Notes under the pieces: model-generated
Database searches by the model: none
What the model saw: the letters and a program-made list of their open reading frames with translations, nothing else
What the model was told of the DNA's origin: nothing
Made by a program: the position numbers and the translations under genes
NCBI GenBank assembly: GCA_013696965.1
Contig: JACCXN010000021.1
Coordinates: 1-46,224, forward strand
Length of the DNA: 46,224 nucleotides
Source: Bacteroidota bacterium
GTDB lineage: Bacteria; Bacteroidota; Bacteroidia; JACCXN01
Reading direction: 5' to 3'
Shown: in pieces, positions 17,935 through 46,224 of the stretch
How the letters are laid out: every line of letters begins with the position of its first letter
Position numbering within the stretch: the stretch's first letter is position 1

Positions 17935-18409
17935 AGTTGGAAAACTAAAAAATTTGCTTTGAATTTATGTTTCAAGCCATTTTATAGTCCTCTTTTTTTA
18001 CTAAAACCTAGCCATTAAATAATAATTCTCAAATTAGCTAGTATCCTTGAAACCCTATATCAGGCTATTCGCATATCATTGGGTTTAAGAATTTGTTTAT
18101 TATTCCTGCAGCCACAGCCAGGACTTTTTGGGCTATAGGTTCAATTGCTTCTTGAATTTTTAACCACAGCATTCCTTGTTAATTAAAATGAATGATGTTT
18201 TCTGTAAAAAAAATCATTAAAGAAAATTTTTATCAACATTAAAATTAAAAAAAGGGGCTCTTATGCTGTTAAAAGGAATGACACGTCCATTTAAAATAAC
18301 TTTTAATAGCTAAAATGCGAATAAAAATGTACTTTTGATAGCTATACTATAAAGTTTTAAGCATTTAAAACTAGCGGAACATTTTCCCCTATTTTATTTG
18401 AAACATAAT
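17935..18409. other. 475-nt non-coding gap before the giant gene
   Basis: No full gene is seen. On the minus strand, about 18080-18190 encodes a 35-residue frame (IQEAIEPIAQKVLAVAAGI in its core, then a stop) that looks more protein-like than random. It could be the tail of a lost gene, perhaps a transposase, but I cannot place it. The rest is AT-rich. A TTATTTG just before 18401 resembles a -7 box lacking the two spacer bases. No terminator hairpin was found after the lipoprotein gene. Confidence 0.4.
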
Positions 18410-21400
18410 ATGATGAGAGTGATGCTTAGGTGTTTTATTATCTCAGTATTTTTACTGTTGCTTTCATCCATTGTTAAATCCCAAACCTTTACTTCAGAAG
18501 CCGACATGAAAAAACATGTCAGAAAACTCTTTGATAATAAGGAATATGTTAATGCAGCTCCTTACTTTTCTCAATTATTAAGTCTTTACCCAAAGGATCC
18601 TGAGTACAATTTCAAATATGGCACTTGTCTTTTATTTTCTGATCATGATAAAGAAAAAGCTATAAAATTTCTTGAATTTGCTTCCACAAAAGAAGGTGTA
18701 GACCCAGAAGTGTTTTTTTATCTTGGAAAAGCATTTCATTTGGATTATAGATTTGAAAAGGCAATAACCGCATATAAAACATTTATTGAAAAGGGAACTT
18801 CTAAATCAAAGGCTGATCTTCAACCAGAAAGACAGATTGAAATGTGCAAGAATGGAAAAACATTAATTCGGAACATAACCGAATTAATTGTAATGGATAA
18901 AAAGGAGATTAAACAAATGGATTTTTTTAGAAGTTATGATTTGGATGACTTCGGTGGAAAAATAATTGTAAAGCCCGATGACTTTAAAACTCCTTTCGAT
19001 ATCAAGCAAGGAGAGAAATCTGTAATGTTTCTTCCAAATAATCCTGATAAAATATTTTTTGCTAGTTATGGTGAAAACAATAAAAATGGAAAAGATATTT
19101 ATAATGTAATAAAGCTTGATAACGGTGAATGGAGCAAACCTAAAGCATTAGGACTAAAAATAAATACTCCCTTTGATGAGGATTATCCTTTTATGCACCC
19201 CAACGGCAAAACACTTTATTTTTGTTCTAAAGGCCATAATTCAATGGGTGGATACGATATTTTTAAATCGGAATATGATAAAGACAATGATTCATGGAGT
19301 ACACCGGTAAACCTTGATTTTGCTATTAGTTCACCTGATGATGACATGCTTTTTATTACTGATAAAGAGGAGAAATTAGCTTATTTTTCCTCTTCCAGGG
19401 CGAGTATTGAAGGTTATATTACTGTTTATAAAATCAACATTGAAAGCAAGCCAGAGGAATATATTCTTGTGAACGGAAAGTTTTTCACAGAAATAAAGGA
19501 TGTTTCAAAATCAGTTACTATTAAGGTGTACAGGATTTCTGACAATAAGTTAATTGGAAATTTTAGTTCGCAATCAGATGGTTCTTATGTTTTAAAAATT
19601 CCCAATGGAGGAAGGTTTAAATTTTTAGTTGAAGCAGCAAGGCATCCGGTACAAAGTGGAATTGTTGAAGTTCCATTTCAAAAAGATCCAAAAATGCTTA
19701 AGCAGGAAATGGAATTGGTGAGAAATGAAACTGGGGTTAAATTAACCATCCGGAATTTATTTGATGAAGAGATAAAAGAATCTGAGCAACTTCTTGCACT
19801 TGATATTATAAAACTCCAGGCAAAACTTGAAGTAAATTACAATCCTGATTTGGCAATAAGGTATGAAGAAAAAGAAGCGCATAAGGTTAATGAGATTAAG
19901 AAAAGTCAAGGGAATACCACCAACCAGGTAAAAGAAAATAATCCTTCGGTTTCTAATTCAGATATTACAAAAATAGCTTTTCAGGATGCAGAAGTTTTGA
20001 AAAATGAAGCAGAAGAATTCAGAAAAGAAGCTGACTTTGCTTTTGCTTTTGCAGAGAAGAAAAGCATTCAGGCTGATGAAAAACAAAAAGAATCTGAAAA
20101 AGCAAAAAAGGAAGCGCTTGCAAATCAGGATATGGCCCAAAGAAAAACAGGCCTGGATAAGGCTGAGGAACTTAAAAAAGCTTCAGTAAGCCTTACCAAT
20201 CAGGCATCTGTAGCTCTAAAAATAGCTGAAAAATCAGACAATGATGCCAAAAGAAAAAAAGAAGAATCGGAAATTGCCTTGCAATATGCAAAGGAATTAG
20301 ATTCTGCTGTTAATTCAACCTCCTCCAAAGAGGCGCTTGATAAACTAAAAACCCAAAAAACAAATCTCGAAAACTCTGCAAATGGTAATGGAGCCAAGGA
20401 TATTTTAAGTCAAACACGTAATGAGCAAAAAGAAAAAAATAAGCAAGCTGAAAGAGCAAGGAAGGAAGCAACTGAAAGTAAAACTGAAGCTGATGAAATT
20501 AAAACTGAAATTCAGAATTTAGAGAAAGTAATTGAAAAAACAAAAGATAAAAAAGGCAAAGCCTCTCTTTCAGAACAACTCTCAACATTAAAGGAGGATC
20601 ACCAAGAGGCTGAAACAAAAGCCAATGCAAATAATGAAAAAGCACTAATGCTTGAAAAGGAAGTAACGAGCTTAAACAACGAGGCAGGTTTAATAGAAAA
20701 AATGATAACAGAAATCAGTTTAAAAGGAAATCAAACTCTTTCCATGGATAAAAACCAGATTAAACAAATCAAGGAAAGAATTGATGAACAAAAGATTTCC
20801 GCTGCTAATGAACCCAACAAAAATTCTTTTTCTGAAAACAATACATTAACGGAAAATAATAAATCTAAAGAAGTACAGCAAAGCAAGCTAACAATAGAAG
20901 AAACGCCAGGAATTAATTCTGAAAAACAAAACAAGTTCAATGGTATTGTAAATAATAAGGGAGAAATAGTTGATTATGGAGCAGATTTCAAAAAACAATT
21001 GGAAGAAAACACAAATAAACCAAACGGAGTAGAAAAAGCCAAAACAAATGCAAGAATTACTAATCAGTGGGCAGAATCAATAAATGATGAAATAAATTTA
21101 AGAACCGAAAAAATTAAAAGCCTCAATGCAAGTGAACAAAAGCAAGAAGAAAAACGAATTGCTGAACTTGAAAAAGAATTGATTGTAAAAAAGAGTGAAG
21201 CTAAAAAACTCCAGGAAGCTTCAACAGCACTTGAAAAAATAGAATCTGAACAAGTGATTGCCAATAAAAAAGAACAAACAGAGAATGTTGAACCAACTTC
21301 GGAGGCTAGCAAAAAACATTTTGAAGGGGTTGCTCCGTTTGCAGAAAGAGTTGAAATTCCGAATCAACAAGGGGAAATTTCCGATTATAGCAACACCTAC

Positions 21401-24400
21401 ATTGATCAACTAGACAAGACTGAAACATTAGGAGATGATTTTAATAAGGAAAGAACGAAAGCCGAAATTTATAGTAACTGGTCCTCCACAATGCGTCAGG
21501 AGATGCTTATTCGAGAAGAAAACATCAAGAATTTGAAAGGCAAAGAAAAAAAGGCCGAACAAATAAAAATTGACCAACTGGCAAATTCAGCAATTTCCAA
21601 ACAAATTGAAGCTGATGAATTTCTTGCAAAAGCTGAATTACTTCAAAAAAACAGGGAACAGGAAAAGGCACTTTCTTCCAGTAAAAAGATTGTGAACAGC
21701 AACGATAATCCTGAAAAAGAGGAAAAGAACACTAAAATTGAAAATCCTGAGGTTAATGAAATTTTTGAGGAAGAAATTAATTATAGCAATGAGGATGAAC
21801 AGGCAGAAGTGAAAAAGGAAAATAATCCTAAAAAAAAGGAATTGCCAAGTGAAAACCTTAGTGCCGATAATCAAAACAAGGAAAAAACTAACATAGAAGA
21901 AAATCAGGATGCCAGGATAAAAGCAAACAATTCTGTTTTAAAGAATAATTATTCATCCACTTCTGCAAAAGAATCATTGAAAAAGGCTACATCGGTTATG
22001 GATGAAGCAAATAACCTAAGTGTTCAGGCTGATGCAATTAGATCTGGTGTTGCTTCTATTAGTGATCCTGATGAAAAAACAGCCCAACTCAAAAGGGCCA
22101 GTGAGCTTGATAAGCAGGCACAAATGAAAAAAAGTGAAGCTGCACTTGCTTTATCAGATGCAGGCAAAACAGAATTCAATGTGAATAAAATCAATATCGA
22201 AAAGAATTTTAACCCAAGCAAAGAAGGCCAGGAAACAGCAGTGGCTACAATGCTTTTAGAGGAGGCTGATTATTATATAAAGCAAGCTGAACAAACAAGA
22301 CAAAAAGCATTAAGCAATGAAAATCCTGCTTCCCGGTTTAATTTTTTAACCCAGGCGATTGAAATGGAGAAAACGGCCATTGAAAAACAAGTAAAGGCAA
22401 TGGAAATATTAAATATAAAACCTGATGCCTCATTGGCTGCGCTTGCATTAACAGAAAAAAACAATCCAATACAAACTGAGGAAGATGCCAATAAAATAAA
22501 GGTATTAAATGCAGAATCGGAAAGTGAATTTCAAAAAGCAGAGGAATTAGAACAAGAGGCAAAAGAACTTGAAAAAGATGCTCAATATTTATCTGAAAAG
22601 GCTGAAAACACAAAGAAAAAGAAAGAGAAGGAAGTTCTTGTGGAACAAGCCACTGAAAAATCAAAAGAGGCAAAGGTATTAAAAGATGAAGCCAGATTTA
22701 CTTTTGAAAAGGCAGAGAAATTAAAAGAGCAGGCCGCAAGTATAAATCTTTCAAACAGCAAAACTAATTCATTAAATAATGAAAATACTTTTAAGGAAAA
22801 GGAAAATGCCTTAAACAATGAATTAGCAGCAAGTACTAAAAAAGAGAATTTGCGGGAAGAAAAATCACTTCAGCAAGAAAATGAAATTGAACTTAAGAAA
22901 GAGGAAATCAAAAAAGAAAATGAAGCTAAAAATGAATCTTCTAATGCAGTAAAAAAAGAAACCCAACAAATAAATCAAGAGCCGGTAAGGGAAAACCTCA
23001 ATGCTATAAAATCTAAAATTGAGGAACAAAATCAAAAGGGAATACAATTTACTGAACAGGCTCAAATATTGGAAAAAGAGGCACAAGTATTGGCATTAGA
23101 AGCAGAACAGAGTAAAAAGAAAAAGGAAAAAGCTGAATTGTTGCAAAAATCGAATGAAAAGACAGAACAGGCAAACATAAAAAAAGCAAATGCTGGACGT
23201 GCTTTTGAGAATGTTAGAAATCTGGAAAAAGATGCAGCACTTGTAAAGGAATATAATGAACAGACGAATAATACTTCAAACAAGGAGAAGGAAACCCCTC
23301 AATCATCCATTCAGAAAAAAGAAGAATACAGGCAGCAAACAAATTCCTTGAAGAAAAAAACAGAGGAAGAAAGCAACAATGCAAAACAATATTCAGAGCA
23401 GGCCCAAGAGTTGGAAAAAGAGGCCGAGGCACTGGAATTAAATGCCCAAAAAAGTAAAAAGAAAAAAGAAAAAGAGGAGTTTAAACAAAAATCCATTGAT
23501 AAAACAGAGCAAGCAAATTCGAAAAAGGAACTAGCTGAAAACGCCATGGATAATGTAAGGGAATTAGAAAAAGAAATGGCGCTTTTGAAAAAGAACAATC
23601 CGGAAGAAAATGGAACAGCTAATAGAGTAAACTCCAAATCTTTGGTTCAAAATCAAGAAGAATACAATAAAAACACAAGAATATTGGAGGGCAAAATAGC
23701 AGAAGAAAATAAAAAAGCAACACTATTTACAGAGAAGGCCCAAGAGTTGAAAAAAGAGGCCGAGGCATTGGCATTAAATGCCCAACAAAGTAAAAAGAAA
23801 AAAGAAAAAGAGGAGTTTCAACAAAAATCCATTGATAAAACAGAGCAAGCAAATTCGAAAACGGAACTAGCTGAAAACGCCATGGATAATGTAAGGGAAT
23901 TAGAAAATGAAATGGTTCTTTTGAAAAAGAACACTCCGGAAGAAAATGGAACAGCTAATAGAGCCAACTCCAAATCTTTGGTTCAAAATCAAGAAGAATA
24001 CAATGAAAATACAAGGGTATTGGAGGGCAAAATAGCAGAAGAAAATAAAAAGGCAACACTATTTACAGAACAGGCTCAAGAGTTGGAAAAAGAAGCGCAA
24101 GCAATGGCCTTAAATGCCGAACAAAGTAAAAAGAAAAAGGAAAAAGAGGAATTGACGCAAAAATCCATTGAGAAAGCAGAACAGGCAAATTCAAAAAAAG
24201 TACAGGCTGAAAACGCTTTTGATAAGGTAAGAGCATTAGAAAAAGATTTGGTGCTATTAAAAACAAATAAAACTAAAGAAAATGCTTCTATTAAAAATGG
24301 AAATGAGCATTCTAATTCTCCCATTCAGCAGCAAGAAGAATACAAGCAAAGAACAATTGTTTTGAAAAACCAAATTGTTGAGGAAAATAAAAAGGCAAGC

Positions 24401-26158
24401 CAACTAACAGAACAAGCTCAGGAGCTGGAAAAAGAGGCGGAAGTACTGGCATTAAATGCACAAGAAATTAAAAAGAAAAAGGAGAAACTGGAATTACAGC
24501 AAAAATCAAGTGAGAAAACAGAACAAGCAAATTCAAAAAAAGAACAGGCCAAAAATGTACTGACTCATGTGAAAATATTGGAAAATGAGGCTGCTGAAAT
24601 AGTGGTTCTTTCGGAAAAAATAAATCAGGATGAAAAGGAAAAGGAAGAAAAGAAAATTGCCACGGAAGCATTAATTGCAAAATCAAGTATGCCTTCTGAC
24701 ATAAATAAATATGAGGTCCCAAAAATACTTACCGAAGAAATATTTGATAAAGCAGCCCCTACTGTTTATAATGCAAAAAATCCAATACCGGTTGATGCGG
24801 GATTTCCAGAGGGCTTAGTTTTTAAGGTTCAGGTAGGAGCTTTCAGAAATCCTATTCCTTACGATTTATTTAAAGGATTTGCCCCCATTATGGGTGAAAC
24901 CACACCACAAGGTTTTACCAGGTATACTGCCGGAATGTTTAAAGCCCTTGCAACTGCTAATTTGGCAAAAGATGTTATTCGTGGAAATGGATATCCTGAT
25001 GCATTTGTAGTGGTGTTTTACAATGGCAAAAGAATTTCAATGAATGAAGCACAGGCTTTAATTAACAGTGGGAAAATTAATGATAACAATGCATTGGCTG
25101 CCGGGAATTCTAAAACTAATTCCGAAACAACCTTAAATAAAAATGAAAGTTTGAATAATTCTCCACTTAACCAGCAGGAAAAAAACGAAATTAGTAAAAC
25201 GGATGTGTTTGCAAAACAGGAAAAAACCTTTCCTCAGGACGTTGCACCTTATCATGAACTGAATGCTGTAAAAGGATTACTTTATACTGTTCAGGTTGGT
25301 GTTTATACCCGGCCAGTTCCTCCTGGACAGCTTTTTAATATTCAGCCACTTTATGTTGAAAAAACCTCAAATGGAATGTTAAGATACACTTCCGGAATTT
25401 TCAATAATACCACAAGGGCCAACGAAGCTAAAAATACAGTAGTTTCAATTGGAGTAAAAGATGCTTTTGTTTCTGCCTATTACAACGGGGCTAGAATATC
25501 TGTTGCAGAGGCAAGGAAAATTGAAGAATTAAATGGCAGTTCAGTTTTTATTCAATCAAATACAATGAATGTATTACCCGGTGTTTCAAACGATAATGCT
25601 GTTTTTGTTGGACCCATAGTTAATAAAACTGTTCAGGACGAAAGGCCATCAAAGATAACTAAAGCTAAGGATCAGGAAAGTTTAGTGGAACCTAAAGTGT
25701 ACAATCAGGTTATAAACAATCAAGAAGAATTACCAAAGGAACAAAAGGAACAAATTTCCAACCCAATTAAAGAAAATAATCCAGTAAGTGATAGTAATGA
25801 AATAAAACCGAAAAACAATGCTTCATTACCTGAAAACAATGAATTCGAAAAACTACAATTGGATAAAAAAACTTTACCTGGCCTGGAATACAAGGTTCAG
25901 ATAGGTGCATTTAAAGATGAAGTTCCACTTGAAATAGCTACGGTATTCTTTAAACTTTCATATCTGGGGATTAGCCATTATATAAATGATCAAGGTTTAA
26001 CAGTTTACTCCATTGGAAATTATTTTGATTATTCTACGGCAAGCTCATTGAAAAGAAAAATTGCTCAGGACTACAATTTAAAAGATGCTTTTATTGTTCC
26101 ATATTTGAATAAAGAAAAGATCAGTACAAACCAGGCTTTGGAATTGTTGAAAAAATAG
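18410..26158 (+). CDS. Giant TPR-PD40-coiled-coil-triple-SPOR envelope protein
   Basis: A secreted protein of about 2582 residues. Counting from ATG 18410: a signal peptide (cleavage near IVKSQTF); TPR-like helices about 25-150; PD40 beta-propeller repeats about 180-345 (FASYGENNKNGKDIY, YFCSKGHNSMGGYDIF, LAYFSSSRASIEGYI); a carboxypeptidase-regulatory-like beta domain about 355-435 (VTIKVYRISDNKLIG, SDGSYVLKIPNGG). Then comes a Lys/Glu/Ala-rich helical region of about 1650 residues. It includes a pair of about 110-residue repeats near 845-1085 and five tandem 112-114-residue repeats at 1537-2085. Three SPOR-like modules close the protein at about 2136-2221, 2290-2374 and 2492-2577 (KVQVGAF, TVQVGVY, KVQIGAF). 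SPOR domains bind denuded peptidoglycan, so a periplasm-spanning structural or scaffold role is inferred. TTG 18398 would add four residues. There is no OmpA domain. Confidence 0.85.
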   Translation: MMRVMLRCFIISVFLLLLSSIVKSQTFTSEADMKKHVRKLFDNKEYVNAAPYFSQLLSLYPKDPEYNFKYGTCLLFSDHDKEKAIKFLEFASTKEGVDPEVFFYLGKAFHLDYRFEKAITAYKTFIEKGTSKSKADLQPERQIEMCKNGKTLIRNITELIVMDKKEIKQMDFFRSYDLDDFGGKIIVKPDDFKTPFDIKQGEKSVMFLPNNPDKIFFASYGENNKNGKDIYNVIKLDNGEWSKPKALGLKINTPFDEDYPFMHPNGKTLYFCSKGHNSMGGYDIFKSEYDKDNDSWSTPVNLDFAISSPDDDMLFITDKEEKLAYFSSSRASIEGYITVYKINIESKPEEYILVNGKFFTEIKDVSKSVTIKVYRISDNKLIGNFSSQSDGSYVLKIPNGGRFKFLVEAARHPVQSGIVEVPFQKDPKMLKQEMELVRNETGVKLTIRNLFDEEIKESEQLLALDIIKLQAKLEVNYNPDLAIRYEEKEAHKVNEIKKSQGNTTNQVKENNPSVSNSDITKIAFQDAEVLKNEAEEFRKEADFAFAFAEKKSIQADEKQKESEKAKKEALANQDMAQRKTGLDKAEELKKASVSLTNQASVALKIAEKSDNDAKRKKEESEIALQYAKELDSAVNSTSSKEALDKLKTQKTNLENSANGNGAKDILSQTRNEQKEKNKQAERARKEATESKTEADEIKTEIQNLEKVIEKTKDKKGKASLSEQLSTLKEDHQEAETKANANNEKALMLEKEVTSLNNEAGLIEKMITEISLKGNQTLSMDKNQIKQIKERIDEQKISAANEPNKNSFSENNTLTENNKSKEVQQSKLTIEETPGINSEKQNKFNGIVNNKGEIVDYGADFKKQLEENTNKPNGVEKAKTNARITNQWAESINDEINLRTEKIKSLNASEQKQEEKRIAELEKELIVKKSEAKKLQEASTALEKIESEQVIANKKEQTENVEPTSEASKKHFEGVAPFAERVEIPNQQGEISDYSNTYIDQLDKTETLGDDFNKERTKAEIYSNWSSTMRQEMLIREENIKNLKGKEKKAEQIKIDQLANSAISKQIEADEFLAKAELLQKNREQEKALSSSKKIVNSNDNPEKEEKNTKIENPEVNEIFEEEINYSNEDEQAEVKKENNPKKKELPSENLSADNQNKEKTNIEENQDARIKANNSVLKNNYSSTSAKESLKKATSVMDEANNLSVQADAIRSGVASISDPDEKTAQLKRASELDKQAQMKKSEAALALSDAGKTEFNVNKINIEKNFNPSKEGQETAVATMLLEEADYYIKQAEQTRQKALSNENPASRFNFLTQAIEMEKTAIEKQVKAMEILNIKPDASLAALALTEKNNPIQTEEDANKIKVLNAESESEFQKAEELEQEAKELEKDAQYLSEKAENTKKKKEKEVLVEQATEKSKEAKVLKDEARFTFEKAEKLKEQAASINLSNSKTNSLNNENTFKEKENALNNELAASTKKENLREEKSLQQENEIELKKEEIKKENEAKNESSNAVKKETQQINQEPVRENLNAIKSKIEEQNQKGIQFTEQAQILEKEAQVLALEAEQSKKKKEKAELLQKSNEKTEQANIKKANAGRAFENVRNLEKDAALVKEYNEQTNNTSNKEKETPQSSIQKKEEYRQQTNSLKKKTEEESNNAKQYSEQAQELEKEAEALELNAQKSKKKKEKEEFKQKSIDKTEQANSKKELAENAMDNVRELEKEMALLKKNNPEENGTANRVNSKSLVQNQEEYNKNTRILEGKIAEENKKATLFTEKAQELKKEAEALALNAQQSKKKKEKEEFQQKSIDKTEQANSKTELAENAMDNVRELENEMVLLKKNTPEENGTANRANSKSLVQNQEEYNENTRVLEGKIAEENKKATLFTEQAQELEKEAQAMALNAEQSKKKKEKEELTQKSIEKAEQANSKKVQAENAFDKVRALEKDLVLLKTNKTKENASIKNGNEHSNSPIQQQEEYKQRTIVLKNQIVEENKKASQLTEQAQELEKEAEVLALNAQEIKKKKEKLELQQKSSEKTEQANSKKEQAKNVLTHVKILENEAAEIVVLSEKINQDEKEKEEKKIATEALIAKSSMPSDINKYEVPKILTEEIFDKAAPTVYNAKNPIPVDAGFPEGLVFKVQVGAFRNPIPYDLFKGFAPIMGETTPQGFTRYTAGMFKALATANLAKDVIRGNGYPDAFVVVFYNGKRISMNEAQALINSGKINDNNALAAGNSKTNSETTLNKNESLNNSPLNQQEKNEISKTDVFAKQEKTFPQDVAPYHELNAVKGLLYTVQVGVYTRPVPPGQLFNIQPLYVEKTSNGMLRYTSGIFNNTTRANEAKNTVVSIGVKDAFVSAYYNGARISVAEARKIEELNGSSVFIQSNTMNVLPGVSNDNAVFVGPIVNKTVQDERPSKITKAKDQESLVEPKVYNQVINNQEELPKEQKEQISNPIKENNPVSDSNEIKPKNNASLPENNEFEKLQLDKKTLPGLEYKVQIGAFKDEVPLEIATVFFKLSYLGISHYINDQGLTVYSIGNYFDYSTASSLKRKIAQDYNLKDAFIVPYLNKEKISTNQALELLKK
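23018..24664 (+). repeat. Five tandem 112-114-codon repeats inside the giant gene
   Basis: Unit starts are 23018, 23360, 23696, 24032 and 24374, a period of 336-342 nt with the last unit shortened. Each unit carries EQAQELEKEAE, then ALNAQQSKKKKEKEE, then KSIDKTEQANSK and a variable LEK-rich tail. Units 2 and 3 are nearly identical at the DNA level over long stretches. The period is a whole number of codons, so units can be gained or lost without breaking the frame. Confidence 0.85.
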
Positions 26159-38301: not shown

Positions 38302-38631
38302 ATGAAAGGTAAAGAAATCTATAATAGTACAGTTTCAATAACTTTTAGTATTAATAAAACCCAAACAATAGTTGAAAATATTGACAAAACTCATGCTTTG
38401 CAAATTTTCATTCAAAAAGCATTGGAACAAACTGGAAATACAGGAAGGCCGATAGATGATTGGCTGGTAACGTATAATGATTTAAATATAGATGCTAATA
38501 AAAAGGTAGAGGAATATAAATTCCCGGAAAATGCAGTGGTTTTTTTACGATTGAAATGTGGGCCAAGCTGGCCTGAAAATCCTCAGTACAAGATATTTTC
38601 ATTGCGTCAGAAACAGAAACTTAAGCATTAA
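38302..38631 (+). CDS. Ubiquitin-like (DUF2604-type) protein
   Basis: A 109-residue protein. The core VSITFSINKTQTIVENIDKT, then QIFIQKALEQTGNTGRPIDD, then WLVTYNDLNI, then KKVEEYKFPENAVVFLRLKCG follows the pattern I recall for DUF2604, a beta-grasp (ubiquitin-like) family: two strands, the helix with QKALxQTGNxG, the W, and the closing strand VxFLxLK. Typical homologues end shortly after this strand in a glycine. Here the glycine of KCG is followed by an 18-residue basic tail, so it could not be activated by an E1 enzyme without processing. No E1, E2 or JAB protease gene is in the window. Its neighbour is a possible nuclease-fold protein. Family assignment is from memory of the pattern, not a search. 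Confidence 0.55.
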   Translation: MKGKEIYNSTVSITFSINKTQTIVENIDKTHALQIFIQKALEQTGNTGRPIDDWLVTYNDLNIDANKKVEEYKFPENAVVFLRLKCGPSWPENPQYKIFSLRQKQKLKH

Positions 38632-38747
38632 ATATATTTATAAATTCAAATTTAAAAATCACCTCACATTGTGTTTAAATCCACCAAAAAAATTCCTTTT
38701 ATCACTAACATGCTTGAATTTTTCCACACAATGTTGATGTGGAAATT

Positions 38748-39197
38748 ATGATTTTATTTATTAATCTCTCTAATAGTGAGGCAAATTCAAATAACAGCAA
38801 GATGCCAAAGTACGATTCAACCATTTTGTATGATTTATTGGTAGCAAAAATCAAGACAATTTTAGTAAACTCGAAACACAATGAAGTGAATACTTTTAAT
38901 CCTCCGGGAATCCCTGTATTGACAAATTACAGTTTAATTTATCCTGCAATAGAGTTTATTGTTTCAAATTTGAAAATTATAATTGATATTGAAGTTAGCA
39001 ATACTCTAAGTGAGGCAATGAAAGAAAAATGGATAAGGCATGCTTCAAATTGCGATAATTTTATATTAATTGTACCCAAAGAAATGGAGAAAGAAGTTCA
39101 AAATTTTTGTGTTCATAATATTCCTAATTCTGAAGTAAGAACCTATACTTTTGAAATAAAAGACAATGAAATTGAGAATTTATTTATCAATTTTTAA
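38748..39197 (+). CDS. Possible PD-(D/E)XK-fold nuclease-like protein
   Basis: About 149 residues. The core IYPAIEFIVSNLKIIIDIEV, then KEKWIRHASNCDNFILIVPK, then EMEKEVQNFC resembles small restriction-endonuclease-fold proteins: an acidic strand followed by DxEV and a later beta strand with IVPKE. The usual catalytic Lys two residues after the Glu is not clear, so it may be inactive. ATG 38748 is used; ATG 38802 (starting MPKYDST) is the more natural domain start. It follows the ubiquitin-like gene by 116 nt on the same strand. Weak functional call. Confidence 0.4.
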   Translation: MILFINLSNSEANSNNSKMPKYDSTILYDLLVAKIKTILVNSKHNEVNTFNPPGIPVLTNYSLIYPAIEFIVSNLKIIIDIEVSNTLSEAMKEKWIRHASNCDNFILIVPKEMEKEVQNFCVHNIPNSEVRTYTFEIKDNEIENLFINF

Positions 39198-39726: not shown

Positions 39727-40938
39727 ATGTTAAAAAGCCTTCTTACTTATTCTGAAAATTTTGTTAAATCCTTTGCATCAGCAAATACACGGAATTTACT
39801 CCTAAATGAGATTGGCAGATATTATCAAAATTCGCTTAGCGATAAAACAGTTTCAAGTCAGGAAAAAGAAGAAGCTGTTGTAAAGGCTGTAAATTGGCTC
39901 TTAGAATCCCAGGAAAACATGAAAGATGCAGGATTTGGTTCTTATCATCTGGTAAAAGAATATTCTTCCTCTTATCCGGAAACCTCCGGCTACATTATTC
40001 CTTCCTTAATGGAGTATGCATTACTTCAAAAGAATGAACAAATAATTAAAAAAGTACTTCTTACAGCAGATTGGTTAATTTCCATTCAAAAGAAAAGTGG
40101 CGGATGGCAAGGTATGCGAATTGAGGATAACCGTCCTGAAACAGTTTTTAATACAGCTCAGGTAATTCGTGGGCTCATTACAGCTTATGAGTATACAAAA
40201 AAAGATGCGTATTTATCCTCAATTGTAAAATCATGTGATTGGCTTTGCAGTGTTCAATCTGAAAAGGGCTACTGGGAAAAATTTGCTTTTATGAATGTTC
40301 CAAGGGTTTACGACAGCTATGTTGATTTTCCTTTATTAATGGCAAGTAAGATTTGCGCAAACGAAAAATACAAACAGTGCGCCATTAATAACCTGTATTG
40401 GATCATTGAAAAAATGCAACTGCCGAACGGTTGGTTTTTAAATTGCGATAATACGATCAAACACAATGACAAGCCCATTCTACACACCATTTCCTATACA
40501 ATTGATGGCTTACTTGATTCAGGTTTATTCCTAAGAGATGAAAATTTAATAAAAGCAGCAAGGATTCCCGCGGATGAGTTATTGGCCATATTTGAAAAAA
40601 AAGGGTATTTAAACGGACGGTTTAACAAAAACTGGGATGGCTCGGAATACATGATTTGCACAGGATCGGCTCAAATATCCATCGTTTGGTTAAAATTGTT
40701 TAAAGCCTTTAAAGATGAAAGATATCTAAAGGCTGCTCAAAAAATGAATAATTTATTGGTTGGCATTCAAAACCGGCAAGTAAAGGAATCATCCGCCACT
40801 TATGGAGCAATTCCCGGATCTTTTCCTTTATGGGGGAAATATGAACCATTTGCATTTCCAAATTGGGCAACAAAATATTTTATTGACGCCTTAATGCTTG
40901 AAGCAGATGTACAGGCAAAAGAAATTCTTCTGAAATAA
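39727..40938 (+). CDS. Alpha/alpha-barrel (toroid) protein of a glycan cassette
   Basis: A 403-residue cytoplasmic protein with no signal peptide. Helix pairs repeat with tryptophan-containing turns: VNWLLESQENMKDAGFGSY, ADWLISIQKKSGGWQGM, CDWLCSVQSEKGYWEKF, YWIIEKMQLPNGWF. This WL-x2-Q-x4-GGW pattern is typical of alpha/alpha toroid enzymes such as terpene cyclases, polysaccharide lyases or glycosidases. I cannot place it in a particular family. It starts the same-strand run 39727-45784 and is 230 nt from the adenylation enzyme, so it may belong to the same pathway. Confidence 0.6.
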   Translation: MLKSLLTYSENFVKSFASANTRNLLLNEIGRYYQNSLSDKTVSSQEKEEAVVKAVNWLLESQENMKDAGFGSYHLVKEYSSSYPETSGYIIPSLMEYALLQKNEQIIKKVLLTADWLISIQKKSGGWQGMRIEDNRPETVFNTAQVIRGLITAYEYTKKDAYLSSIVKSCDWLCSVQSEKGYWEKFAFMNVPRVYDSYVDFPLLMASKICANEKYKQCAINNLYWIIEKMQLPNGWFLNCDNTIKHNDKPILHTISYTIDGLLDSGLFLRDENLIKAARIPADELLAIFEKKGYLNGRFNKNWDGSEYMICTGSAQISIVWLKLFKAFKDERYLKAAQKMNNLLVGIQNRQVKESSATYGAIPGSFPLWGKYEPFAFPNWATKYFIDALMLEADVQAKEILLK

Positions 40939-41168
40939 ATTCAATTTACAGCAACATTTTTAGTGGAATCTCAATTAAATAATCAATTATTATTCAGCGG
41001 TTTTTAAGAGAATAAAAGCACTTTAGTCTTTAAATAAAAAGGCAACAAAATATTTCAATGCAACGTTGATGCCTGATAGAGAAAATCAAACAGCATATTT
41101 TGAACAGGGATATGGCTTCAATGCTGTAAATATAATTATATTCGTGTTTTAATTCAAGGAACAAAGGA

Positions 41169-42767
41169 GTGGAAAATCTTCAAAATAACCAGATATTAAT
41201 AAACGGGTTTCTGAATTCTGTTAATCAGCGCCCTGGATCCATTGCCCTGGATGTAAATAACTGTTTGTACACCTATGCAGAAATGCATGAAGCATCAGTT
41301 AATATTGCCAATGCAATTGTAAAACATCAACATAGTGCTAATAATTATACGGCCATATTGGCCTCCAATAGCTTAAGTGCCTATACCGGTATCCTTGGTG
41401 CATTACTTATTGGAAAGACATACGTTCCATTAAACAAAAAAAATCCAGTGTTAAGAACTTGGGATATGCTCAATCGATCTGGTGCAAACACATTGGTAGT
41501 TGGTAAAGAATGCCTGGAATATTTTATTGAATTATTACCGCTTCTAAAATCCGCCCTAACTGTGGTGCTTCCCGATACTGCAAACACCGATGATTTACAA
41601 TTAAAATACCCACAGCACAAGTTTTGTTTTTCCAATGAACAAGACTTACAAAAAGAAGAATATAGTGAGTTAACACAGAATACCAATCCCATTGCTTATC
41701 TTTTATTCACCTCTGGAAGCACAGGAATACCAAAAGGAGTGCAGGTTACAAATGAGAATGTATGCGCTTATCTGAATTATATTTCCGATCGTTTTGATTT
41801 TAGTGCAACTGACAAATTTTCTCAAACATTTCCGCTTGCTTTTGATTTGAGTGTTCATGATATGTTTCTTTGCTGGAAAGTTGGCGCATGCCTGTGCGTT
41901 CCAAGTGAGGATGCCTCCCCTGCTCTATTATCCTCCTTTATTAAGGAAAAAAATATTACTGTATGGTTTTCAGTTCCATCCCTTGCATTGCTATTAATGA
42001 AAATGCGGTTGCTTAAAAACAATGTTTTTCCAAGCTTGCGCTTTAGCCTTTTTTGTGGTGAAGCCTTAACCGAAAAAGTTACTTTTCAATGGCAACAGGC
42101 AGCTTTAAATTCAAGAATTCTAAATCTCTATGGCCCTACTGAAGCAACTATTGCAATAGCCTGTTATGAGTGGAAAAAATCACAGGAATTGAATTTTTGC
42201 ATCAATGGAATTGTGCCAATTGGTAAAGTATTTAACACACAAAATTTCTGCATTGTAGATGAAAATAAAAAACAGGTAAATTTTGGTGAAAATGGAGAAC
42301 TTTTATTAAGTGGAACACAAATTAGCCCTGGATATTTAGACGACCAGGAGAACATTAAAAAACAATACATGAAATTACCCGGATTTGGAGATAACGTTTG
42401 GTATAAAACCGGGGATTTGGTAAGGGAAGATGAACAAAACAATTTGCATTTTTCAGGAAGAATAGACAGCCAGGTTAAAATCAGGGGATTTAGAGTGGAG
42501 TTATTGGAGATAGATAATGCAATAAGAAAAATAGTAAACAATGATTGGGTGGCAACAGTGGTTGAGGAGCATAATGATACATTATATTCGTTTATTTGCA
42601 AAAATCCATCTGAAACAGAAATAAGTGAAAGTGAAATTCTGGCATATTGCCGTACTGTTTTACCCTGGTATATGATTCCTGGCAAATTAGTATTTATTGA
42701 AAAAATGCCGTTGAATAACAATGGAAAAATTGACAGAAATAAGCTTAAAGATTTGATCAAATGCTAG
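41169..42767 (+). CDS. DltA-like amino-acid adenylation enzyme
   Basis: A 532-residue stand-alone adenylation domain with the core motifs in order: A3 LLFTSGSTGIPKG, A4 FPLAFDLSVHD, A5 LYGPTEAT, A7 WYKTGD, A8 QVKIRGFRVELLEID and A10 NNNGKIDRNKL with the catalytic lysine. The Asp in FDLS is the residue that normally contacts the alpha-amino group, so an amino acid substrate is likely. It should activate it with ATP and load the carrier protein at 42870. The start is a GTG at 41169 with AAGGAG directly before it; a TATATTCG, one base off the -7 consensus, lies at 41137. The amino acid cannot be told from sequence alone. Confidence 0.9.
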   Translation: MENLQNNQILINGFLNSVNQRPGSIALDVNNCLYTYAEMHEASVNIANAIVKHQHSANNYTAILASNSLSAYTGILGALLIGKTYVPLNKKNPVLRTWDMLNRSGANTLVVGKECLEYFIELLPLLKSALTVVLPDTANTDDLQLKYPQHKFCFSNEQDLQKEEYSELTQNTNPIAYLLFTSGSTGIPKGVQVTNENVCAYLNYISDRFDFSATDKFSQTFPLAFDLSVHDMFLCWKVGACLCVPSEDASPALLSSFIKEKNITVWFSVPSLALLLMKMRLLKNNVFPSLRFSLFCGEALTEKVTFQWQQAALNSRILNLYGPTEATIAIACYEWKKSQELNFCINGIVPIGKVFNTQNFCIVDENKKQVNFGENGELLLSGTQISPGYLDDQENIKKQYMKLPGFGDNVWYKTGDLVREDEQNNLHFSGRIDSQVKIRGFRVELLEIDNAIRKIVNNDWVATVVEEHNDTLYSFICKNPSETEISESEILAYCRTVLPWYMIPGKLVFIEKMPLNNNGKIDRNKLKDLIKC

Positions 42768-42869
42768 ATCATTGCTTTAATTTTAACAGAATATAAATAG
42801 TTCCTTTGTAATGAATATCCAAAGGAAACATAATACAGAGCGCAAATTTGTTCAGAACATAATGCAATC

Positions 42870-43136
42870 ATGAATAAAATGGAAAAAGAAATAACAACAT
42901 TTATTTTAGAACAATTGGATAAGAGATTAATACGCATAGGCATGCAGAGAAAGGAAATAACTCCAAATTTCGATCTTGTAAAATCCGGCTTGTTAGATTC
43001 CATGTCTTTTGTTGATTTGGTGGTGGAAATTGAAAAAAAATTCAATACAGAAATTGATTTCGAATTAGCCTTCCAAAATGCTGATTTTACAACAATATCA
43101 GGCCTTATTCAAACTATTGAAAAGCAATTAAAATGA
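42870..43136 (+). CDS. Acyl/peptidyl carrier protein
   Basis: An 88-residue four-helix carrier protein. GLLDSMSFVDLVVEIE holds the Ser that takes the phosphopantetheine arm, as in DltC and other carriers. It should accept the aminoacyl group from the adenylation enzyme upstream and present it to an acyltransferase. It overlaps the next gene by 4 nt (ATGA), a clear sign of coupling. No phosphopantetheinyl transferase is in the window. Confidence 0.88.
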   Translation: MNKMEKEITTFILEQLDKRLIRIGMQRKEITPNFDLVKSGLLDSMSFVDLVVEIEKKFNTEIDFELAFQNADFTTISGLIQTIEKQLK

Positions 43137-43618
43137 GCATTAAAATAATAGATGATTCAAATGATCCATTGTTAATCCAGGTTAAACACTTGTTTCAGCA
43201 AATGTACGACCAACTAAACGATCAGATGCCTGAAAAGCAATTGAAAATTCCTTTGGTTGATAATGGCGCTGAATTGTGGTTAGAGGGAGTAAAAAAAATG
43301 CTTGGGCGACTGGGAAGAATTGTTGTAGCTATTAAAGATGATAAAGTAATTGCTTTTGCAAATGGGGTAATTTATTTTACTCCTGATTATTTAGGTGATT
43401 TAAAAGTAGGTTCAATTGCCAATGTTTTTGTTCTTCCACAAGCCAGGGAGCTAGGCTTAGGGCTGCGTTTAGTAACAGAATTAGAACAATGGTTTAAAAG
43501 CAAAAACGTACATTCAGTTAATCTTCAGGTTATTTTCGAAAATAACCAAGCATCTGATTTTTGGAAACACTGTAAATACCTGGAGGAAATTATTCAGTTT
43601 AGAAAAATATTTGCTTAG
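43133..43618 (+). CDS. GNAT-family acyltransferase
   Basis: A 161-residue Gcn5-related N-acyltransferase. The cofactor loop is VFVLPQARELGLGLRLV, and the last strand is VNLQVIFENNQASDFWKHC with the usual position for the acyl exit. It could transfer an acyl or aminoacyl group from the carrier protein or CoA to an amino sugar. It is coupled at both ends (ATGA, then TAGTG). Confidence 0.82.
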   Translation: MSIKIIDDSNDPLLIQVKHLFQQMYDQLNDQMPEKQLKIPLVDNGAELWLEGVKKMLGRLGRIVVAIKDDKVIAFANGVIYFTPDYLGDLKVGSIANVFVLPQARELGLGLRLVTELEQWFKSKNVHSVNLQVIFENNQASDFWKHCKYLEEIIQFRKIFA

Positions 43619-44478
43619 TGGAAATAAATAATATACCTTCTTCAAGCATTGCAGATATTCTGGATATTCATCCTGGAGATGTGGTAATGGTTTCTGCCGA
43701 TGTTTCAAAACTTGCATTTTATGCTAAGAAAAAGGAAGGTGTTTTTGATCCCCAAAAATTCATTGAAAGTTTATCCAAAAAAATTAATCCCGGAGGAACT
43801 TTAGTTATTCCTACATATACACACCTTCTTGAATCAGGTGATAAATTTGATTTAAATTCTACCAGGCCTCTTACAGGAACACTGGCAATTGAAGCACTTA
43901 AAAACCCTGATTTTAAGCGGACGGCTCACCCCTTACATTCCTTTGCAGTTTCAGGAAAATACAGGGAAGAAATGTGTAACCTGACAAATAAAAGTTCGTT
44001 TGGCCCAGATTCTCCTTTCTCATTTTTACATCAAAAAAATGCGAAGCTGTTATTGGTTGACCTGGATTTACACAATTCATTAACCTTTACCCATTATGTG
44101 GAGGAAAATGAAAAAGTAAGATACAGGTATATGAAGAAAATGCATTTTCTATACACTGATATTTCTGGCATTACCGCAAAAAGGAATTACTTATTGTATA
44201 AAAAATTTCCCTGGATTACCATGGACTTTAATCCCTTGGAAAAAGTAATCAATCCGGCAGTTATTCAACAACAAATTATAAATGGAATTAATTTCAGAAT
44301 ACTTCAGCTTACAGAGGTATATGAAATAATTAAAGCAGATATTCATAAAAACCATGCAAAGCGTATTGCAAAATACAACTGGTCAATTTTTTTAAAGTTT
44401 ATTGTAAAAAGCATTTTAAAGAAATTGAATTTATATTCCTCCTCCTCAGATAAAATTCGCAATGCTGATATATTGTAA
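43618..44478 (+). CDS. AAC(3)-family (Antibiotic_NAT) acyltransferase
   Basis: A 286-residue protein like aminoglycoside 3-N-acetyltransferases. It opens LDIHPGDVVMVSADVSKLAF, has GGTLVIPTYTH and the catalytic-type histidine block RTAHPLHSFAVSG, then FGPDSPFSFLHQKNAKLLLVD and TFTHYVEE. Chromosomal members in polysaccharide loci are thought to N-acylate amino sugars; resistance is not implied. The start is GTG at 43618, overlapping the GNAT stop by one base. The 3' end overlaps the deacetylase gene by 17 nt. The carrier protein two genes upstream could supply the acyl group. Confidence 0.82.
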   Translation: MEINNIPSSSIADILDIHPGDVVMVSADVSKLAFYAKKKEGVFDPQKFIESLSKKINPGGTLVIPTYTHLLESGDKFDLNSTRPLTGTLAIEALKNPDFKRTAHPLHSFAVSGKYREEMCNLTNKSSFGPDSPFSFLHQKNAKLLLVDLDLHNSLTFTHYVEENEKVRYRYMKKMHFLYTDISGITAKRNYLLYKKFPWITMDFNPLEKVINPAVIQQQIINGINFRILQLTEVYEIIKADIHKNHAKRIAKYNWSIFLKFIVKSILKKLNLYSSSSDKIRNADIL

Positions 44479-45784
44479 ACAAACAACCCCTCGCATTGAG
44501 TATATTTTCAGGTTTTTATTAACTGAAATGTCAGGAATCAGCCTTGATTTCACAAGTGATTTTGACTATTTTAATGCCTGCGATGGAGCAAAAATAAATT
44601 ATTCTTCCCAGGCTTCAAAAACTGCTTACTCCATACATCCAGTAGGATTATTATTTGAATCAACAATTGAAAAACAACAAATTCAGGTATTTGAACACAA
44701 TGGAGTAAAAGCTTTTTTCGAAACAGATAAAAGCGCTGAAATTCCTTTTGATTTATTTGCCGCTTCTTTTTATTTGATTTCCAGGTATGAAGAATATCTT
44801 CCTTTTAGAGCAGATAACCATCAAAGGTTTCCAGCCACTGAAAGCCTTGCTTTTAAAAACAATTTTTTAACTCAGCCTGTGGTAAATATCTGGCTTGAAA
44901 ATTTAAAAAAAGTTTTATTAAGGCATTTTCCTGATTTGCAAATTCGTACCTCTGCTTATCAATTTATCTCCAGTATTGATGTGGACAATGGATATGCCTA
45001 CATGGGAAAAAGTTGGTGGAAAACCTTTGGTGCATTTTCAAAACATTTTTTAAAATTCGATTTCAAAAAAATCAGGGAAAGAACTTTGGTTTTATGTGGA
45101 TTTAAAAAGGATCCCTTTGATGAATATAATTTTCAACACGCCCTGCAGTTAAAATATAAATTTTCTTCCCTATACTTTTTGCTTTGCGGTAAATCCTCAA
45201 AAAATGACCATAACATTTTGCCTCAGGGAAAAGCCTTCAATAAACTTGTAAACAAGCTTGCCGGTTTTGCCGAAATTGGAATTCATCCTTCCTATACATC
45301 CAATAAATATCCTGAAAGGGTAAAAAATGAAAAGCAAGTATTGGAGAAAATTTCCAACAAAAAAATTACCAGGAGCAGACAGCACTTCTTAAAATTGAAA
45401 TTGCCTAATACTTATTCTGTTCTAATTAATTCAGGCATTCAGGAAGACTACACAATGGGCTATGCCTCGCACCCCGGATTCAGGGCAGGCATTTGTACTG
45501 CTTTTAATTTTTATAATTTGGAACGGGAGCAAAGAACAGAATTGAAGGTTTTTCCCTTTGCAATTATGGATGTTACTTTTTCAGATTACATGAATTTAAA
45601 TGCTTCTGAAGCCATTAACTTAATTATTCCAATTGTTGAAGAAATAAAAAAAGTAAATGGTCTTTTTATAAGCGTCTGGCACGACAGAAATTTTGAAAAC
45701 AAAAACAAAATAAAAGGTTGGAATGAGGTTTATGAGGAAATGGTAACTGTTGCAAGAAGCAACCAATGTTGTCATTCCGAATGA
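44462..45784 (+). CDS. Polysaccharide deacetylase family protein
   Basis: A 440-residue protein. The N-terminal part (EYIFRFLLTEMSGISLDF, residues to about 150, with PFDLFAASFYLISRYEEYL) is the domain often found before Bacteroidota polysaccharide deacetylases. The NodB-like part includes FISSIDVDNGYAYMGK (metal-binding Asp pair), EIGIHPSYTSNKYPERV and MGYASHPGFRAGICTAFNFY. It should remove acetyl groups from an amino sugar, freeing amines for the acyltransferases upstream. The last four codons before the stop come from the palindromic element at 45770, so the true ancestral C-terminus was different. Only the distal part is altered; the core is intact. Confidence 0.82.
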   Translation: MLIYCKQTTPRIEYIFRFLLTEMSGISLDFTSDFDYFNACDGAKINYSSQASKTAYSIHPVGLLFESTIEKQQIQVFEHNGVKAFFETDKSAEIPFDLFAASFYLISRYEEYLPFRADNHQRFPATESLAFKNNFLTQPVVNIWLENLKKVLLRHFPDLQIRTSAYQFISSIDVDNGYAYMGKSWWKTFGAFSKHFLKFDFKKIRERTLVLCGFKKDPFDEYNFQHALQLKYKFSSLYFLLCGKSSKNDHNILPQGKAFNKLVNKLAGFAEIGIHPSYTSNKYPERVKNEKQVLEKISNKKITRSRQHFLKLKLPNTYSVLINSGIQEDYTMGYASHPGFRAGICTAFNFYNLEREQRTELKVFPFAIMDVTFSDYMNLNASEAINLIIPIVEEIKKVNGLFISVWHDRNFENKNKIKGWNEVYEEMVTVARSNQCCHSE

Positions 45785-45912: not shown

Positions 45913-46224
45913 TCATCTCATTAAATGCAGGGAACCTTGTTTAAAGGCTTCTCCATTTTCCAGAACTCCGGTTATGGTATAATAATAAACCCCCTGGCTG
46001 CATTCCTGGCCTGTAACTGTGTGGCCATCCCAGTGCATATCGTTTCCTTTTTCCCAAGCGTGAATTTGTATGCCCCAGCGGTTGACAATACTTACCTGGA
46101 ATGTTTTTGCCCCTTTTACAACCAGAGTGAATGTATCGTTTTTGCCGTCACCATTGGGGGTGAATACATTGGGGGCAAGCACCAGTAAAGTGGAGGCTAT
46201 GTTTATGGTATGCATTACTGTATC
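45913..46224 (-). CDS. T9SS type B (gliding-associated) sorting domain, 3' part of a large secreted protein
   Basis: The frame is open to the window edge, so the gene continues beyond 46224 and the ATG at 46215 is not its start. The encoded 104 residues hold the type B sorting domain (CHU_C-like): VFTPNGDGKNDTFTLVVKG, VSIVNRWGIQIHAWEKG, WDGHTVTGQECSQGVYYYTI, ending GSLHLMR. Such domains guide proteins through the type IX secretion system. The upstream part is unseen, so the protein's role is unknown. Confidence 0.9.
   Translation of the reverse strand, partial: DTVMHTINIASTLLVLAPNVFTPNGDGKNDTFTLVVKGAKTFQVSIVNRWGIQIHAWEKGNDMHWDGHTVTGQECSQGVYYYTITGVLENGEAFKQGSLHLMR

Follow-up and report, generated by a model that had tools for sequence, protein, structure and literature searches.

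Type IX secretion cargo of Porphyromonas gingivalis and Tannerella forsythia carries at its C-terminus a linking sugar, either 2-N-seryl,3-N-acetylglucuronamide or 2-N-glycyl,3-N-acetylmannuronic acid, and that of T. forsythia is 2-N-glycylated, as described in the available part of PMC7468200. According to the same text, Wbp enzymes lead to a di-N-acetylated uronic acid; deacetylation of this acid is the proposed role of VimE and addition of an amino acid that of VimA, for which TIGR03019 is the family reported. The mode of attachment of type IX cargo to the cell surface depends on the linking sugar, whose acylation was earlier thought to require just one dedicated transferase. Here we describe a run of six genes at positions 39727-45784 of a 46,224-nucleotide stretch of Bacteroidota DNA (the window), in which an amino-acid adenylation enzyme and a carrier protein stand beside a deacetylase of the VimE family. 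We consider it moderately probable, judging from gene content and conservation, that this run serves the Wbp/Vim linking-sugar pathway as an accessory module for glycyl-carrier-dependent N-acylation.

The cassette resembles the Wbp/Vim pathway in that it has a VimE-family deacetylase and that its genome encodes a VimA-like FemAB protein, a WecB-type epimerase, WbpB/WbpD-like proteins and the sortase PorU. In many relatives, the cassette itself sits in the vim locus. In contrast to the pathway, the cassette adds an adenylation enzyme (A), a carrier, a GNAT acetyltransferase, an AAC(3)-like acyltransferase (AAC3) and a toroid protein, none of which is mentioned in the available parts of PMC7468200, PMC11969387 and PMC13086638. 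The available text of PMC11969387 (2025) reports that Prevotella intermedia has an N-alanyl deoxyhexose linker without VimA and VimE, that linkers vary among species, that several biosynthetic routes are possible in the phylum and that the N-alanyl route is unknown. The AlmEFG system, which places glycine on lipid A in Vibrio cholerae, shares with the cassette a stand-alone A of the glycine type with a near-identical pocket and a discrete carrier. However, the cassette transferase is AAC(3)-like and not of the LPLAT type of AlmG, for which a Pfam search confined to the run gave no match among the six open reading frames (ORFs). Furthermore, the cassette has an extra deacetylase and GNAT, and its predicted acceptor is a sugar amine.

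Each of these enzyme families is already known. Neither their combination in the cassette nor its placement in the vim locus was found in the open-licence papers searched on carrier or adenylation linker routes, FkbH/AAC(3) sugar acylation and N-alanyl O-antigen. The cassette is a concrete, conserved candidate for another linking-sugar route, and it predicts a substrate (glycine), a carrier and a transferase.

Gene run and its conservation

The window corresponds to contig C21 in a genome of 3.86 Mb and 106 contigs, and the contig ends exactly at 46224. ORF calling gives six consecutive ORFs on the plus strand, and the end of a type IX cargo gene adjoins them on the minus strand:

39727..40938, +, (alpha/alpha)6 toroid protein ("TOR") with a GH88 / 2-epimerase superfamily fold (AlphaFold2 model, structural neighbours, 21-row alignment)
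41169..42767, +, stand-alone amino-acid adenylation enzyme (A), predicted glycine:carrier ligase (family models, pocket, comparison with AlmE 4oxi)
42870..43136, +, acyl/peptidyl carrier protein (PF00550, E 2.6e-7), phosphopantetheine site Ser44 (GLLDSM) read off the sequence
43133..43618, +, GNAT acetyltransferase (PF00583 Acetyltransf_1, E 1.6e-12)
43618..44478, +, AAC(3)-like acyltransferase, AAC3 (PF02522 Antibiotic_NAT, E 3.5e-24, 86 bits, cut-off 25)
44462..45784, +, VimE-family deacetylase, second VimE of the genome (DUF7033, E 2.7e-36; NF053580, 171 bits)
45913..46224, -, C-terminal part of a type IX secretion cargo with a type B sorting domain, context only (TIGR04131, E 7e-13)

A sequence-only reading of this DNA had proposed a five-gene run with coupled starts for the last four genes. 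All five genes are confirmed by ORFs and families, but the run has six, since the toroid gene had gone unnamed. Consistent with coupled starts, the carrier and GNAT ORFs overlap by 4 nucleotides, GNAT and AAC3 by 1 and AAC3 and the deacetylase by 17. Gaps of 230 and 102 nucleotides separate the toroid gene from A and A from the carrier gene, respectively. A search for the Bacteroidetes-type promoter pattern was uninformative, with 2 matches against a shuffle mean of 6.3, both of them on the strand opposite to the run.

A class-wide AAC3 protein search covered 395 genomes, including that of the window, and found AAC3 in 18 of them, spread over only 8 families. Of the 17 positive genomes other than that of the window, 16 have AAC3 next to VimE, to a VimA-like FemAB gene or to both, and the full A-carrier-GNAT-AAC3 set is present in 8 of the 18, the window genome included. 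When named genomes were scanned with the AAC3 alignment, 80 of 109 loci were kept, of which 73 were left after removal of 7 duplicates. The full set occurs in 12 of these 73, all in Bacteroidota metagenome-assembled genomes (MAGs), 10 having VimE and VimA and 2 being cut by contig ends. In total, there are 19 other distinct Bacteroidota full cassettes (16 with VimE and VimA-like genes, 2 cut, 1 unlinked). Conserved linkage had been set beforehand as one point on which the sequence-only reading could fail; at the level of sequence, the A-carrier-GNAT-AAC3 linkage recurs at all these loci. Because the same gene set is found at 19 other loci, the run is not a chance grouping. Within 9 kb of AAC3 and on its strand, 50 of the 73 named loci lack A, any strong FkbH and any vim gene; these are mostly from Firmicutes and other phyla, and some are from Bacteroidota (e.g. 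L153, L155, L158, L162, L168, L170).

The position of the cassette is also conserved. It lies inside an rpsT-radC-wecB-VimE-VimA-upp locus in L021 and L025-L027 (housekeeping genes assigned by eye) and inside an rpsT-radC-wecB-[VimE]-VimA-upp locus in L033, and two VimE genes flank it in L093, L099 and L103. The same rpsT-radC-wecB-VimE-VimA-upp locus exists without the cassette in genomes G001 and G002. All 18 AAC3-positive genomes fall among the 227 of 395 that have a VimA-like gene, with a chance probability of 3.5e-5 uncorrected for kinship.

Members of the A and AAC3 families are known from non-ribosomal peptide synthetase (NRPS) clusters and aminoglycoside resistance, and the genome has, apart from the cassette, a large NRPS-like locus (L038, G000:C22:5000-24999) with two giant ORFs of 4556 and 1881 residues that carry A domains. 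However, a Pfam scan of the run finds no condensation or thioesterase family, AAC3 scores 36 bits with the AAC_3 resistance equivalog against a cut-off of 270, and the conserved neighbours are sugar-nucleotide enzymes. It is therefore hardly credible that the run is an NRPS-like small-molecule cluster or a resistance enzyme with chance neighbours.

Predicted loading of glycine

A matches the AMP-binding family (E 6.8e-62) and the amino-acid adenylation model TIGR01733 with 323.6 bits, above the cut-off of 317.4. Its ten pocket positions, mapped via core motifs with reference to the GrsA numbering, are D226, L227, H230, F267, L294, C296, L320, I328, A329 and K520. Asp226 and Lys520 are marker residues of alpha-amino-acid enzymes; together with a glycine pocket like that of AlmE, they bear out, as far as sequence tells, the earlier claim that an amino acid and not a fatty or aryl acid is adenylated. 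The best relative of the pocket region in the PDB is 4oxi (E 5.6e-24), V. cholerae AlmE with glycyl-AMP. AlmE D247, L248 and C316 are described for glycine binding in the available text of PMC11253843, L248 and C316 with the backing of mutagenesis, and these three residues align with D226, L227 and C296 of A. Leu320 and His230 are also as in AlmE, whereas DltA has Thr and Met at these positions. The pocket reads DLHF[FL]CLIAK in 17 of 20 A enzymes, one cut protein agreeing over its present part, and it is near-invariant even though overall identity drops to 35%.

The structural model of A (predicted local distance difference test score, pLDDT, 89) is similar to VinM (Z 49.5), IdnL7 (47.9), AlmE (45.9) and DltA (45.6), with 499 residues aligned to AlmE at 2.2 A and 32% identity. 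Since these Z scores are all close, the fold by itself cannot discriminate the substrate. Judging from the pocket, glycine is likely to be the substrate of A, followed by other small amino acids.

The run had been likened to DltABCD, in which A loads D-Ala onto a carrier for a surface polymer, teichoic acid. A true Dlt analogue would D-alanylate a polysaccharide after deacetylation, and A is indeed distantly related to DltA (263 bits) and the carrier weakly DltC-like (24.1 and 31.3 bits). However, these scores are far below the respective cut-offs of 559.85 for DltA and of 52.35 and 68 for DltC. As the sequence-only reading had stated, DltB and DltD are missing from the run: no such family was found among the six ORFs, to which the search was confined. 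The pocket of A is nearer to that of AlmE than to that of DltA, which disfavours D-Ala specificity. A Dlt analogue is thus very unlikely. A comparison search for DltA in two Firmicutes genomes gave nothing above the cut-off.

Homologues of A are also found on plasmids of other bacteria. The neighbours of the Vibrio tubiashii homologue are unrelated. Plasmids of Solidesulfovibrio carbinolicus and S. magneticus RS-1 (L218:8084-12593 and L219:8048-12592) carry A, a carrier, a Cys-rich protein of 241 residues with no Pfam match and AAC3 in this order, and the pocket of A is identical to that of the window enzyme.

Proposed deacetylation and acyl transfer, and the linking sugar

The sole NCBIfam match of the window deacetylase is NF053580, VimE, a UDP-2,3-diacetamido-2,3-dideoxy-alpha-D-glucuronate deacetylase. 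The window copy scores 171 bits with this model and a second copy on contig C45, also without any other NCBIfam match, scores 158, both below the equivalog cut-off of 440. Asp173, Asp175 and His275 are invariant in the alignment. The idea that this enzyme would expose a sugar amine is retained, but its family points to a UDP-diacetamido-uronate rather than to a generic polysaccharide; likewise, the alternative route of glycan decoration proposed from the sequence would probably act on the type IX anchor, at a nucleotide-linked or linker sugar, rather than on a bulk glycan. The window VimE is 44% identical to the canonical VimE of its own genome (G000:C45:2089-3399). In a 34-row tree, the window VimE groups with VimE of an FkbH-type locus (91/81, not starred), and the C45 VimE groups with VimE of two family members without AAC3. 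Two VimE genes are clear only in the window genome and in three MAG loci (L093, L099, L103).

The canonical locus on C45 is arranged as radC-wecB-VimE-VimA-like-upp (radC and upp by eye). The VimA-like FemAB gene (G000:C45:3396-4307) directly follows VimE and has a weak TIGR03019 match; FemX is the top hit of its profile in the PDB (E 0.007). The genome also encodes PorU (NF033707, 1420 bits, cut-off 420) and, on C23, a dehydrogenase-WbpB-like (GFO/IDH)-WbpD-like (hexapeptide) run, in which the dehydrogenase and WbpD were assigned by eye. For WbpE, there is only a DegT candidate on C30.

Other deacetylase-looking genes occur at some related loci. L146 and L030 have a second, different one (family by eye; no NCBIfam match). 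A deacetylase-looking protein of about 330 residues lies beside AAC3 and a VimA-like gene at L030:10125-11111, L031:7222-8229 and L037:7306-8307, two of which were scanned with no NCBIfam match; L031 and L037 have this protein and no VimE at the locus.

His159 and Glu162 of AAC3 are invariant in 16 rows. The aligned counterpart of His159 in AAC(3)-IVa is a His that is replaced by Ala in chain 6mn4 and that we take to be the catalytic one. The same AAC3 family is found in modules with FkbH, whose substrate is presumably glycerate. FkbH and a small carrier-like ORF replace A, carrier and GNAT beside AAC3 in L024, L130 and L140, often with a VOC protein near, and FkbH is also beside AAC3 in L144, L146 and L169; VimA and/or VimE adjoin AAC3 in L024, L140, L144, L146 and L169. 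These modules differ from the cassette in having FkbH as the loader in place of A, and GNAT was not found in the FkbH loci. That AAC3 is kept while the loader changes fits exchangeable N-acyl donors, with AAC3 as the transferase from carrier to sugar amine. AAC3 is therefore proposed, from sequence comparison, to be a carrier-to-sugar N-acyltransferase, and the carrier-based acyl transfer suggested earlier is supported. On this view, AAC(3)-type "resistance" enzymes may be general carrier-to-sugar N-acyltransferases. No relatives of AAC3 were found in viral contigs.

Two other roles of AAC3 were considered. In G316 and G197, which seemed to have AAC3 alone, a different contig has FkbH close to a wecB-toroid pair, and the G367 cassette is apparently split by contig ends (L213, L023); an acetyl-CoA-dependent role of AAC3 in such genomes is therefore unsafe to assume. 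Replacement of WbpD by AAC3 was rejected because a WbpD homologue is kept in 18 of 20 genomes, being missing in G053 (72% complete) and G197.

GNAT is present in all 19 other Bacteroidota cassettes and, at the threshold used, in none of the 61 remaining distinct named loci. Its relatives in the PDB include AAC(6') and N-alpha-acetyltransferases. GNAT accompanies the amino-acid loader and not FkbH, which suggests that it acts on the glycyl amine, although Solidesulfovibrio lacks it. Hence, GNAT may cap the carrier-borne glycyl group.

Gene content, conservation, linkage and pocket residues were directly observed, and from these we infer the following catalytic steps. A would form glycyl-AMP and load glycine onto Ser44 of the carrier, as predicted from the pocket. 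The VimE-family deacetylase would strip an N-acetyl group from the product of the Wbp enzymes, a UDP-linked 2,3-diacetamido-uronate, thereby freeing an amine, as its family suggests. AAC3, judging from its family and the swapping of loaders, would transfer the acyl group of the carrier to the freed amine. GNAT probably acetylates the glycyl amine, although this is the weakest step. The capped glycine would then not rival the amino acid added by VimA as the nucleophile for PorU. VimA, whose gene is part of the canonical vim locus on C45, would add the amino acid that PorU joins to the cargo, as in the P. gingivalis literature.

A wider model can be put forward tentatively, with less confidence than the assignment of the run itself: the anchor sugar of type IX bacteria may be N-acylated twice, its acyl donor being exchangeable within a fixed vim locus. 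The donor would be glycyl-carrier with GNAT, a glyceryl-type FkbH carrier, or formyl. The window would hold the glycyl version, with N-acylation of the AAC(3) type rather than dependent on tRNA, and GNAT would cap the glycine, leaving only the VimA amino acid for the sortase.

Alternatively, the carrier glycine might stay uncapped and itself be the sortase nucleophile. This would be a tRNA-independent N-glycyl route parallel to VimA, and GNAT would act elsewhere, e.g. on the sugar or a side product. The 2-N-glycyl linker of T. forsythia (PMC7468200, available part), the AlmE-like glycine pocket of A and the second VimE carried by the cassette in the window genome are consistent with such a route. 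However, a VimA-like gene in all 18 AAC3-positive genomes indicates addition, not replacement, and GNAT accompanies A in 20 of 20 Bacteroidota cassettes, the window included. We regard this alternative as unlikely.

The run could also make a glycine-derived decoration of another surface glycan, such as O-antigen or capsule, its use of a VimE-type deacetylase then being incidental and the vim linkage reflecting a shared diamino-uronate. Outside Bacteroidota, AAC3 homologues are found among other sugar genes with a carrier and AMP-ligase or FkbH (L105, L110, L145; roles by eye), and the Solidesulfovibrio plasmids and the unlinked position of the window copy would also be in line with another glycan. 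However, AAC3 is beside VimE/VimA in 16 of 17 class relatives, and the cassette lies between two VimE genes in L093, L099 and L103, so that a different glycan has, in our view, a small probability.

Several observations also weigh against placing the run in the linking-sugar pathway. The VimE score of the window copy is short of the equivalog cut-off, and the cassette (C21) and the vim locus (C45) of its genome are unlinked. Most relatives have one strong VimE, so that the free amine for AAC3 is unaccounted for in them. Because WbpD persists in 18 of 20 genomes, AAC3 needs an amine other than that used by WbpD or acts after a second deacetylation. The pocket deviates in L021 (DLQFMCFISK) and in L022 of G048 (DPHYFSLVNK), and G048, the exception among the 17 relatives, has its cassette unlinked as well. 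The Solidesulfovibrio plasmids have no GNAT and, in the stretch shown, no vim gene; since their pocket is the same, the chemistry is not bound to type IX secretion. Finally, genomes G054, G010 and G237 have the toroid gene and neither AAC3 nor a recognised formyltransferase at the locus.

Toroid protein and neighbouring genes

The toroid protein is conserved across a 21-row alignment, and its AlphaFold2 model has a pLDDT of 92. The nearest structures are unsaturated glucuronyl hydrolase 3wiw (Z 32.4, 332 residues aligned at 2.9 A) and cellobiose 2-epimerase 5zig (Z 32.0). Toroid homologues scoring at least 500 bits occur in 21 of 395 genomes, i.e. in 15 of the 18 with AAC3 and in 6 of the 377 others (Fisher p 8e-20, uncorrected for kinship); 29 of the 395 pass E 1e-40, and the 8 weaker ones were counted as negatives in this test. 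At L094:5369-8182, toroid and A are the two domains of one ORF of 937 residues, a fusion that hints at functional coupling. The toroid gene often adjoins wecB, including in L207-L211 of other genomes. In G046 and G325, which have the toroid gene without AAC3, the neighbour is a formyltransferase-domain protein.

These data do not fit a toroid bound solely to the carrier module, and this idea was rejected: the toroid gene also accompanies AAC3 alone (L100, L117) or wecB (L207-L211), and six genomes have it but no AAC3. From the model, the toroid may plausibly act on the uronate sugar, e.g. as an epimerase, which is a guess from the fold. Neighbours of the formyltransferase type are located at L201:8591-9364, L202:8343-9110 and L204:14606-15403, the one in G122 resembling those in G046 and G325 by eye only.

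Just upstream of the cassette, positions 38302-38631 and 38739-39197 encode a small DUF2604 protein (PF10790, 47 bits), a family that we take to be ubiquitin-like in appearance, and a neighbouring ORF without a Pfam match. Further upstream in the window (18398-26158), an ORF of 2586 residues partially matches the type IX PorE family model with 88 bits against a cut-off of 600.

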